Positions 1,908 to 61,157 of a stretch of 64,000 nucleotides of DNA are shown one piece after another; position 1 is the stretch's first letter, and each line of letters begins with the position of its first letter. Under the pieces are notes generated by a model. That model ran no database searches. It was not told the DNA's origin and saw only the letters and a program-made list of their open reading frames with translations. A program made the position numbers and the translations under genes. The stretch covers positions 5,628,501 to 5,692,500 of the forward strand of contig NZ_CP016808.1 of assembly GCF_002741035.1 (NCBI RefSeq). Reading direction: 5' to 3'. The DNA is from Paenibacillus sp. BIHB 4019. Lineage in GTDB: Bacteria; Bacillota; Bacilli; Paenibacillales; Paenibacillaceae.

Positions 1908-1970
1908 AAGGGTGACCTCCTCAAGTAATGAGCGGCAGCAATTTTATAAGAAACCAAGCTCTCCTTGGAC

Positions 1971-2264
1971 AAGGTGAAACGGCTGTGGCCGTCCTCTGGC
2001 GGCCCGGCGTGTTTCATTCCGAGAAATATAGAGAAAGGATGACGTTAGGATACCTTTCCTATATTTCAAGGTGAAACGGCTGTGGCCGTCCTCTGGCGGC
2101 CCGGCGCGTTTCAATCCGAGAAATATAGAGAAAGGATGACGTTAGGATACCTTTCCTATATTTCAAGGTGAAACGGCTATGGCCGTCCTCTGGCGGCCCT
2201 GCGCGTTTCAATCCGAGAAATATAGAGAAAGGATGACGTTAGGATATCCTTTCTCTATATTTTA
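1971..2264. repeat. Three tandem copies of a 97-bp two-hairpin element
   Basis: Copies begin at 1971, 2068 and 2165 with a period of exactly 97 bases. Each has a GC-rich hairpin I (GTGAAACGGC ... GCGTTTCA with a GGCCGTCCTCTGGCGGCC-like core) followed by an AT-rich hairpin II (AATATAGAGAAAGGAT ... opposite arm). Copies 1 and 2 differ at only a few positions and share the same imperfect right arm of hairpin II. Copy 3 has a perfectly matched arm. Related single copies occur at 37232-37331 and 61030-61130, and a diverged inverted copy at 25955-26051. No open frame of note is present in 1908-2405; apart from these repeats I see only a weak promoter-like area before the ligase-like gene. Confidence 0.93.
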
Positions 2265-2405
2265 AAGAAAAATGGCTTCCAAGCGCTGGCTTATTGCTAT
2301 TATGTGGAGGAAGGTATGCGATTATTCACTAATTTATCCTGAATTTACCGCCGTTCAGCTGAACCTTTCCATGCTAAAATGATAGGACGGCAAGGGGGAA
2401 TCGGC

Positions 2406-25954: not shown

Positions 25955-26051
25955 TAATATAAGAAGGTATCAGTTTTACACTTATGATCTTCTTATTTTA
26001 CCCTCTCGAAACGGTAGCTTTGCCGCCAGAGGACGGCGACGGCCGTTTACG
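25955..26051 (-). repeat. Diverged copy of the two-hairpin repeat, overlapping a gene 3' end
   Basis: Read on the minus strand, GTAAACGG...GTCGCCGTCC followed by TGGCGGC and a CGTTTC arm matches hairpin I of the copies at 1971 and 61030. It is followed by AATAAGAAG ... CTTCTTATATT, matching hairpin II. Hairpin I lies inside the last 17 codons of the EamA transporter gene, and its stop codon falls just before hairpin II. Confidence 0.75.
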
Positions 26052-26954
26052 CTTGCTGCCCAGCAGATTAGTGCCGACAACCCCTGCAATAATGAACAGC
26101 GAACCGATGACATGATACATCGTCAGCTCTTCCCCAAGGAAAAGGGCACCGCCCGCCATAGAAACGATCGTCGATAAATTGGTAAACACGCTCATTTTCG
26201 AAGCTTCGATCCGTCCCAAAATGTAATTGGACGTCAGAGAAGTGATGAGCGAGGAAATAACGCCCAAATAGAAAATGGATAGCAGGAATGATCCGCTGCG
26301 CAGCGGCGTAAGGAAGCTGCCCAGCGTCCCCGCAGTCGTGTGCTGCACCAATGATATAGAGAGAAACACGCCAAAACCAATCCCAAGCATCAAATACGTA
26401 AGTTCAGCTGGGCTAAAATGCTTGGAAAGCGAGCGTGCCAGCACGCTATAGCCGGCAAAAGCGAAGCAGGTCAGAAACAGCAGGGAAATGCCAAGCATAT
26501 TGGATAAGTCGATGCTGCTGCCCTTCATCATGAAAATGAACACAACGCCAAATACCGAGAGGAAAATCGATAGCTTTTGCAGCAAGGATGTCCTTTCTTT
26601 CAGAAAGATGGAGGCGATGATCATCGTCACAACAGGCGTAAAGGCATATAAAATGCCGCCTTCAGCGGAGCTTGCATGCAGCAGGCCAAAAGCCTGAAGG
26701 GTGAAAAAGCCGAGCGGATACATCGCTGCGAGCAGCAGCGCTTTAAATAGCGGTTTCCCGCGATAATTCAGCTTAATCATGCCCAGTGCTACAGGGATTG
26801 TCATGATGAGAAATGAAAATGCAAACCGGAACGTGAGCGTGTCCAGTGGCTGGGCGCTTCCGAGCGACAGCTTGGCGAATAAAAAGGAGAAACCGATAAT
26901 GACGGCATTTAATACAGCGAATATATAGGCGAGCTTAATACTTTTATCTTTCAT
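25998..26954 (-). CDS. EamA/DMT-superfamily transporter
   Basis: A 318-residue protein with ten predicted membrane helices in two EamA repeats (about 10-140 and 155-295). This superfamily exports or exchanges amino acids, purines and other metabolites. GGAAGGAAG precedes the ATG at 26954. The soluble C-terminal tail, from RKRPSPSS to VSRG, is encoded by a copy of the dispersed repeat, so the native end of the protein has probably been replaced or extended by the insertion. The gene is divergent from a MocR-type regulator, which often controls a neighbouring transporter or an enzyme of vitamin B6 or amino acid metabolism. Confidence 0.88.
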   Translation of the reverse strand: MKDKSIKLAYIFAVLNAVIIGFSFLFAKLSLGSAQPLDTLTFRFAFSFLIMTIPVALGMIKLNYRGKPLFKALLLAAMYPLGFFTLQAFGLLHASSAEGGILYAFTPVVTMIIASIFLKERTSLLQKLSIFLSVFGVVFIFMMKGSSIDLSNMLGISLLFLTCFAFAGYSVLARSLSKHFSPAELTYLMLGIGFGVFLSISLVQHTTAGTLGSFLTPLRSGSFLLSIFYLGVISSLITSLTSNYILGRIEASKMSVFTNLSTIVSMAGGALFLGEELTMYHVIGSLFIIAGVVGTNLLGSKRKRPSPSSGGKATVSRG

Positions 26955-32174: not shown

Positions 32175-32310
32175 AAAAACCCGGGAGATTATTTATGAAA
32201 TAATCTCCCGGGTTTTTATCCCTCCGTGTCACTGACGCATTAAGGTAGCGGCAGCGGTTTACTCTCGGACCTGACCCAAATTGGCGGAACCCTAGTAAAC
32301 TGTAAAACCG
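32175..32310 (-). promoter_or_regulatory. Guanidine-I-like (ykkC class) riboswitch with terminator
   Basis: On the minus strand the leader carries the ykkC signature blocks in order: CTAGGGTTCCG (32295-32285), GGTCCGAGAG (32271-32262) and ACGGAGGGATAAAA (32227-32214), running into ACCCGGGAG. The last piece is also the 5' arm of a 20-bp perfect terminator stem with a three-base loop (32175-32217) and a T-run. Aptamer and terminator therefore exclude each other, so ligand would switch transcription on. The sequence fits the guanidine-I subtype better than the ppGpp or PRPP variants, though the subtype call is by eye. Confidence 0.85.
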
Positions 32311-36939: not shown

Positions 36940-37223
36940 ACCAAAGACATGATTCCAATTTCGGGCCGCCCAGAGAGAGAAGCGATTGCTGCAAGCTTCT
37001 TCGGATACCGGATATGGTTTTACCCCTTTGCAGCCGTGCTGCTGAACCCGCTCCCTTGTGCGACAGTAAGCTTCACCGCCTTATCCGCGATAACGGATAC
37101 CAATAAGGGCCTTTTATCCGGGGCGCTGCAGCAAGGGCTGTGGCAAGCTGGCGATTAGGTCGAATAAGGGTGGAACCACGAGCCGAACGCACTCGTCCCT
37201 TTCCGGGATAGAGGCGTTTTTTT
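36940..37223 (+). promoter_or_regulatory. T-box leader (threonine) with terminator
   Basis: The T-box sequence AGGGTGGAACCACG lies at 37167-37180, followed by the terminator arms AACGC...TCCC and GGGA...GCGTT (37186-37223) and a T-run. The long GC-rich stem I occupies about 36960-37120. The specifier is probably ACC at 37046-37048 in the context GAACCCG, a threonine codon, which agrees with the downstream thrS. Uncharged tRNA-Thr should stabilise the antiterminator and switch thrS on. Confidence 0.88.
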
Positions 37224-37231
37224 GCGTTCCC

Positions 37232-37331
37232 AAGGTGAAACAGCTATCGCCATCCTTTGGCGGCGCAGCGCGTTTCAGTCCGAGAAATATAAGCATATTT
37301 ATAAGGGGAAACTTATAAATTCTTATATTTT
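37232..37331. repeat. Single copy of the two-hairpin dispersed repeat
   Basis: AAGGTGAAACAGC ... GCGCGTTTCA forms hairpin I, and AAATATAAG ... CTTATATTT with an inner TTTATAAG/CTTATAAA stem forms hairpin II. It lies between the T-box terminator and the thrS ribosome binding site, so it is part of the thrS mRNA leader when the terminator is passed. Confidence 0.9.
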
Positions 37332-37358
37332 AAATAAGCAGAAGTGGAGGCTCAAGCG

Positions 37359-61007: not shown

Positions 61008-61029
61008 GATGTGGTAATAGCAAGGCTAC

Positions 61030-61130
61030 AAGGTGAAACGGCTGTCGCCGTCCTTTGGCGGCGCGGCGCGTTTCAGTCCGAGAAATATAAGCGGAGTATA
61101 AGGGTGAAACTTATAAATTCTTATATTTCA
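61030..61130. repeat. Single copy of the two-hairpin dispersed repeat
   Basis: AAGGTGAAACGGC ... GCGCGTTTCA is hairpin I and AAATATAAG ... CTTATATTT, with an inner TATAAG/CTTATA pair, is hairpin II. It lies directly between the GH105 stop and the iolD promoter area and is about 85% alike to the copy at 37232 in hairpin I, by eye. Confidence 0.92.
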
Positions 61131-61157
61131 AGAAAAAACTTGTCAGCGGCTCTATGT

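Follow-up and report, generated by a model that had tools for sequence, protein, structure and literature searches.

The window analysed here is a 64,000-nucleotide stretch (positions 5,628,501-5,692,500) of the 7,246,671-base single-contig genome of Paenibacillus sp. BIHB 4019. It harbours six units of a short repeat: three in tandem near its start and one each at about 26, 37 and 61 kb (Table 1). A preliminary description, made from the sequence alone, had reported these six units, and all of them are confirmed at the positions it gave, with deviations of no more than a few bases. Its borders required adjustment, since the true span runs from CAAG to TATATTT. In the orientation of that description, a unit reads CAAG-GTGAAAC..(hairpin I)..GTTTCA-NTCCGA-(hairpin II)-TATATTT and measures about 97-101 bp.

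Table 1 Repeat units, right-hand tetranucleotides and neighbouring features in the window (window coordinates)
Feature	Position	Strand	Remarks
Class A unit 1 of 3	1970..2066	+	CAAG-hairpin I-hairpin II-TATATTT, 97 bp
Class A unit 2 of 3	2067..2163	+	97 bp; unit 1 has this unit's CAAG as its right tetranucleotide
Class A unit 3 of 3	2164..2262	+	terminal unit of the array
TAAA, right-hand tetranucleotide	2263..2266	+	putative target of the three-unit array, by the rule from empty sites
Class C unit	25956..26055	-	another hairpin I; overlaps the 3' end of the EamA-type exporter ORF
EamA-type exporter ORF	25998..26954	-	last ~18 codons and stop (25998-26055) come from the class C unit
Guanidine-I riboswitch	32203..32306	-	Rfam, E 1e-13
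T-box leader and terminator preceding thrS	37000..37345		49.7 bits; family cut-off 93
Class B unit	37231..37330	+	between T-box leader terminator and thrS start
TAAA, right-hand tetranucleotide	37331..37334	+	putative target of the 37-kb unit, by the rule from empty sites
Class B unit	61029..61128	+	site also filled in genome G010
CAAG, right-hand tetranucleotide	61129..61132	+	putative target of the 61-kb unit, by the rule from empty sites; A-run after it

Anatomy and pairing of the units

Units were assigned to classes A and B by their hairpin II, while class C is defined by the signature of the 26-kb copy. As had been recognized before, the tandem set (class A) has another hairpin II sequence than the class B copies at 37 and 61 kb, and pairing is kept in both. 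Hairpin I had been described as common to all six units, which does not hold for the 26-kb copy: this copy belongs to a sister class with a different hairpin I. Nor does it fold far better than dinucleotide shuffles (z -1.3), whereas the other five units reach z-scores of -5.0 to -6.5 against such shuffles. The earlier statement that no unit contains a gene is correct in general, the exception being the 26-kb copy, which encodes the end of the exporter ORF.

The two-hairpin structure was scored after leaving out 4 of 78 loci in class A, giving 74 copies, and 3 of 42 in class B, giving 39. It is paired in 90.9% and 90.4% of cells, respectively, compared to 36.6-53.4% for slid versions of the same structure. 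The covariation scores of 0.105 (class A) and 0.076 (class B) exceed those of all 500 shuffles and of all slides. Counts of pairs changed on both sides give a different picture, with 11 in class A showing no excess over slides (9-13) and 10 in class B lying barely above them (5-9). Cells with two-sided changes number 28 in class A (11-21 in slides) and 14 in class B (8-19 in slides), and the within-class count of paired changes is inflated by the kinship of the copies. The preliminary description had named the lack of an excess of compensatory substitutions in the stems as a refutation, and these figures answer that point in part. Pairing is retained chiefly between the classes, with a modest within-class excess of paired changes.

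Copies in the genome and in related bacteria

A covariance-model search of the genome revealed at least 150 copies of the main family. All 150 matches scored had an E-value of 1.9e-10 or better, so that 150 is a floor. A strict two-part pattern gave 71 exact matches, versus none for the reversed control, and BLAST returned 52 matches. The dispersed family proposed earlier, with further copies beyond the six, is therefore present. Among the matches listed (at least 150 copies), 108 are class A and 42 class B; with tandem units merged, they form 117 loci, of which 101 hold a single unit and 16 hold two to five. The class C signature has 36 exact matches in the genome, one of them (6,557,332) inside a covariance-model match. 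A simple gene finder places 2 of the 117 listed loci entirely within predicted ORFs, while a further 23 overlap the end of one.

The left tetranucleotide of the listed copies is nearly fixed, being CAAG in 127 of the 146 units scored (4 of 150 were left unparsed). On the right, all 32 array-internal units are followed by CAAG, while the 114 terminal units are followed by CAAG (23), TAAA (20), AAAA (15), CAAA (10), TTAA (8), TGAA (6), TCAA (5) or others (27).

BIHB 4019 and its relatives make up a set of 60 genomes, 35 of which contain matches. Within the genus these are 32 of 37 genomes, and among other families of the order 3 of 23; the number of matches per genome ranges from 0 to at least 65. 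A pattern scan of species representatives returned at least 120 stretches, and all among the matches listed are from Paenibacillus, which is no evidence of absence from other genera. Neither viral contigs (exact pattern) nor phages gave a match, and two plasmid records matched, both large replicons of P. cellulosilyticus.

Two stable hairpins, paired changes in modest excess and a largely extragenic location (2 of 117 listed loci wholly within a predicted ORF, though 23 others overlap an ORF end) might indicate functional RNA parts, namely intergenic hairpins serving as terminators or transcript stabilisers and spread through their usefulness; the 37-kb copy, located in the thrS leader, would fit such a role. 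Paired structure is, however, equally expected of a single-stranded DNA substrate and does not single out an RNA role. Moreover, at 43 of 77 loci a class A unit runs antisense to its neighbours on both sides, every orientation occurs, and several orthologous sites lack the unit precisely (see below). Rfam covariance models gave no match at gathering scores over the window's units, and at five loci searched with E up to 0.5 a single chance-level overlap with a unit appeared (IS009, E 0.25, 22.4 bits, cut-off 117). An RNA role, the alternative offered in the preliminary description, is thus possible but unsupported, with no above-chance Rfam match and the antisense placement of class A against it, and we consider it improbable.

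Empty sites, targets and array changes

The preliminary description suggested non-autonomous mobile elements, for which empty alleles at orthologous intergenic sites would be informative. Ten clean empty sites, picked by eye, were found in close relatives and define the ends as CAAG...TATATTT. With L numbers denoting loci, these are, as filled/empty, L217/L290; L158 and L434/L344; L282 and L383/L232; L164/L366; L321 and L390/L250; L229, L413 and L310/L449; L283/L430; L430/L283 and L235; L146/L440; and L396/L412 and L234. The filled allele equals the empty allele plus CAAG...TATATTT, inserted before a target tetranucleotide that pre-exists and is mostly A-rich. Some flanks carry substitutions, and at L282/L232 the A-run differs in length by one base. 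The clearest sites are L229 of BIHB 4019 against L449 of G010, and L430 of G010 against both L283 of P. algorifonticola and L235 of BIHB 4019. At the former, the empty GTTGTT followed by TAAAAAACG corresponds to GTTGTT-CAAG...TATATTT-TAAAAAACG; at the latter, GCGGACA followed by TTAAAAAGG corresponds to GCGGACA-CAAG...TATATTT-TTAAAAAGG. All target bases are kept in both filled alleles.

Comparison of the right tetranucleotides with the empty alleles gives 33 agreeing bases out of 40, with 5 of 10 sites exact; for the left tetranucleotides, 25 of 40 bases agree and 2 of 10 sites are exact. L396/L412 is the opposite case, with the better fit on the left, and at L164/L366 CAAG stands on both sides as well as in the empty allele, so that a 4-bp duplication would look alike. 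Eight of the ten empty alleles lack CAAG/CTTG at the site. A class C site, L429:5783/L313, obeys the insertion rule as judged by eye and stands outside the ten-site count. Further candidate sites were excluded owing to diverged flanks, a leftover element remnant or location in short repeats (L090/L141, L081/L301, L084/L318, L303/L278, L212/L328, L273/L202, L366/L089, L283/L264, L337/L394, L384 and L424/L227, L366/L456, L333/L452, L450/L163, L164/L456 at two places, L223 and L313/L429, L235/L283, and L429/L223).

Each filled/empty difference may reflect a gain or a precise loss, with the direction unproven for the individual site; at L430 and L396, the two empty species each favour a gain. Loci of P. 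algorifonticola are mostly 85-95% identical to those of BIHB 4019, and G010 is 91.1% identical at one 3.1-kb locus.

Arrays also change in length. In 43 comparisons of BIHB 4019 arrays with G010 (flanks of at least 80% identity; a few stretches overlap, so that some arrays were counted twice), 29 were of equal length, 9 of another length and 5 were scored empty. Two of the latter are clean (L229, L146), one, at the window's tandem locus (L223), is an apparent deletion remnant, and the remaining two, both in L164, have diverged flanks. The three-unit array of the window corresponds to a single unit in P. algorifonticola (L313), and other array counts between these two species are 3:1, 2:1 and 1:3. 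Together, the ten clean empty alleles and the differences in array length show that the elements are mobile, in line with the initial proposal. In G010, the counterpart of the window's tandem locus (L429) and L452 carry apparent remnants of deleted units, e.g. with CTTTCCTATATTT left, which could mark a route of copy decay.

The varying array lengths, together with mosaic arrays that mix unit classes and with no enzyme having been found, could also be read as spread through homologous or illegitimate recombination and DNA uptake, with no transposition involved. Yet unrelated sites have borders that coincide to within one base, and sites occupied by single units have empty alleles that lack any copy, which renders this reading very improbable.

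Directly after TATATTT, the first flanking position is A in 67% (class A) and 72% (class B) of cases, and an A-run of at least three lies beside the hairpin-II end in class A at 70 of 78 loci and in class B at 37 of 39. This A-rich flank is often the terminator T-run of a neighbouring gene, read in reverse. A hairpin of -10 kcal/mol or better is present next to 31 of 78 loci in class A and 14 of 39 in class B, as compared to 263 of 951 control A-runs of at least five. As this excess is modest, we rejected terminators as the specific target, the A-run describing it better. The unit's own CAAG can act as a target as well, which is consistent with the tandem arrays of 97-98 bp.

Two classes of mobile element were set aside on these grounds. 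Miniature elements of DDE transposons do not fit, as 9 of 10 clean sites need no duplication and visual inspection reveals no inverted-repeat relation between the ends CAAGGTGAAAC and TATATTT. Elements of the IS91/rolling-circle (Y2) type use a target tetranucleotide CTTG or GTTC that is already in the target; as stated, 8 of 10 empty alleles lack CAAG/CTTG, and the Y2 domain PF04986 is missing from the BIHB 4019 genome (no match at 0.001). Group II introns, retrons, attC sites and CRISPR were set aside on anatomical grounds.

Strand bias, enzyme searches and proposed mechanism

GC skew from sampled stretches places the replication origin at ~2.05 Mb and the terminus at ~5.82 Mb. With the two loci wholly inside ORFs omitted, 62 of 77 listed class A loci have one and the same strand of the unit on the lagging-strand template (unit opposite the leading strand; 15 lead). 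Listed class B loci show no bias (19:19), and the two classes differ (Fisher p 0.0011), although class B has hairpin I and the ends in common with class A. Class C is biased like class A, at 27 of 33 loci, or 24 of 29 without the loci beside class A or B matches. Within the window, the class A array is a leading-strand case, as are the two class B units. In relatives, where loci were taken by exact patterns and the skew from 40 fetched stretches, class A amounts to 56 of 68 (G010 36/44, G011 11/12, G032 9/12). Class B is unbiased in two relatives at 28:20 (G010 16/31, G032 12/17; one locus in a terminus gap dropped), and exact patterns found none of it in G011. The relatives have insertions in common, so that these counts are not independent.

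The predicted genes are themselves oriented, with 670 of 849 leading and 179 lagging. As the class A bias equals this gene bias (Fisher p 0.88), gene orientation may account for much of it. At the 23 class A loci whose two neighbours disagree in direction, however, the ratio is 17:6 (p 0.035), which favours replication. The geometry of the empty sites and the bias concern the same strand: the bottom strand carries the target 5' of the unit and is the strand found on the lagging-strand template. This pattern points to insertion into single-stranded DNA during replication.

Reverse transcription of a unit transcript at a T-tract, comparable to SINE-type retroposition or to the retrohoming of group II introns, would likewise account for the A-runs beside hairpin II (counts above) and for the lagging-strand bias. 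Most empty alleles already hold the A-rich tetranucleotide, though, and the 5' ends are mostly complete (CAAG in 127 of 146), and we regard such an RNA-mediated insertion as extremely improbable.

No enzyme that could move the units was detected by the searches made. The Y1 transposase domain (PF01797) has no match in the BIHB 4019 genome at 1e-5 (best E 0.39 in a relaxed search). Across the 60 genomes, PF01797 occurs in 8 and PF04986 in 10, and of the ten genomes with at least 60 matches to the element, five (G000, G016, G022, G026 and G032) have neither. Eight intervals between close copies were inspected for an autonomous partner; seven contain ORFs, which, judged by their first 60 residues, are ordinary-looking host genes. 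Five IS605-type Y1 loci of relatives have, by eye, ends unrelated to the units and were rejected as a source. The element model matches one of 18 Y1 loci, L128 of G010, where a broken Y1 transposase gene has a weak composite copy (2423-2557) more than 600 bp away. Given more than 100 copies per genome, this proximity may be due to chance.

The copies might thus be debris of a REP/RAYT or IS200/IS605 system whose Y1 transposase has since been lost, i.e., fossils rearranged only through recombination. Y1 genes, absent here, are occasional in relatives, including one intact copy in G010; units more than 5 kb apart are at best 96% identical, not 100%; and L429 and L452 are probable deletion remnants. 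On the other hand, close relatives differ in filled and empty sites, so that movement is recent on that scale. The unrelated ends of the five Y1 loci and the single weak, distant match among 18 also speak against debris, as does the missing GTAG tag. We therefore view this explanation as rather unlikely.

A single-strand mechanism driven by an HUH-type or HUH-like enzyme is, on balance, the probable explanation for these non-autonomous ~97-101-bp repeats. The active strand would be the reverse complement of the orientation used here, 5'-(T-rich target tetranucleotide)-AAATATA...hairpin II...hairpin I...CTTG-3'. Acting mostly on the lagging-strand template, an HUH-type (or similarly acting) enzyme would recognise the hairpins in single-stranded DNA, cut past the T-rich tetranucleotide and past the element's own CTTG, and paste the unit behind another T-rich tetranucleotide. 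Because CTTG would itself be an acceptable target, units could stack head-to-tail into arrays of 97-98 bp, which might later lengthen or shorten through recombination or slippage. More tentatively, the units may constitute a genus-wide, high-copy single-strand mobile family whose mover is neither a known Y1 nor a known Y2 enzyme, being instead an unrecognised HUH-like protein or a host replication or repair enzyme that acts on CAAG-tagged hairpin pairs on the lagging-strand template.

Such a scheme resembles IS200/IS605 elements, which, as outlined in the cited passages, use the lagging-strand template, carry subterminal hairpins and are flanked on the left by a target tetranucleotide, with an equivalent one closing the right end (PMC6006769). 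Like IS608 and ISDra2, the Paenibacillus units insert precisely beside a target tetranucleotide, carry a related tetranucleotide of their own at the other end and have a hairpin near each end. There is no target duplication, and insertion occurs 3' of the target tetranucleotide, at the ten sites except L396/L412 (poor fit) and L164/L366 (ambiguous). In classes A and C, the putative active strand is biased towards the lagging-strand template, a resemblance that is confounded with gene direction. In contrast to IS200/IS605, the units have no transposase gene in or beside them, and none was found in the genome; the target is loosely A/T-rich rather than one fixed tetranucleotide; hairpin II starts right at the target; inspection by eye 5' of the hairpin-II foot reveals no obvious guide tetranucleotide, and no guide sequences were identified; and class B is unbiased.

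With REPs and REPINs, as portrayed in the cited sections, the units have in common a high copy number, a mostly extragenic location, a conserved tetranucleotide at the 5' foot of a hairpin and tandem clusters (PMC3116915, PMC6006769, PMC8266576). Whereas REPs carry GTAG or CGTC, according to the passages cited (PMC6006769, PMC8266576, PMC3733652, PMC3116915), the Paenibacillus units carry CAAG, are ~100 bp long, consist of two unlike hairpins in direct order and have no RAYT. The family thus appears to work like an IS200/IS605 or REP-type element, although membership in either fails on transposase and tag.

The preliminary description had compared the units to the bcr repeats of Bacillus cereus. 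This comparison holds in kind, both being short high-copy repeats of one group of Bacillales. In the portions of the literature cited, bcr repeats measure 100-400 bp, have a mobility tied to TTTAT (PMC6542083) and are transcribed within mRNAs for 40-51% of copies (PMC3446304). In the same account, bcr1 is likewise confined to one group of Bacillales, mobile in character and associated with a T-rich motif (PMC6542083); its target motif and unit ends appear to differ. The open-access literature searched contained no description of the family, which is no proof that none exists.

The units are a real family of orphan two-hairpin mobile repeats, and most likely a new one that works like IS200/IS605 and REP elements. 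High-copy short repeats without a mover are a standing puzzle, as exemplified by the CGTC-tagged REPs, which, in the cited passages, seem to lack a dedicated transposase (PMC3733652). Here, the unit ends, the empty sites and their targets, a set of close relatives and a strand bias are all available, so that what moves an orphan repeat can be put to a direct test. The repeats lie beside genes at the 117 listed loci, one within the leader of an aminoacyl-tRNA synthetase gene and one ending a coding sequence, and thereby shape gene ends.

Other modules adjoin some units, e.g. one starting CAAGCAAAAACGACTTCG, so that arrays can be mosaics. Such mosaic arrays join units of differing hairpin I types, of which at least four can be told apart by eye, at CAAG; examples are L232 and L167 in BIHB 4019 and L310 and L318 in P. 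algorifonticola. This repertoire of hairpin I types deserves a classification of its own.
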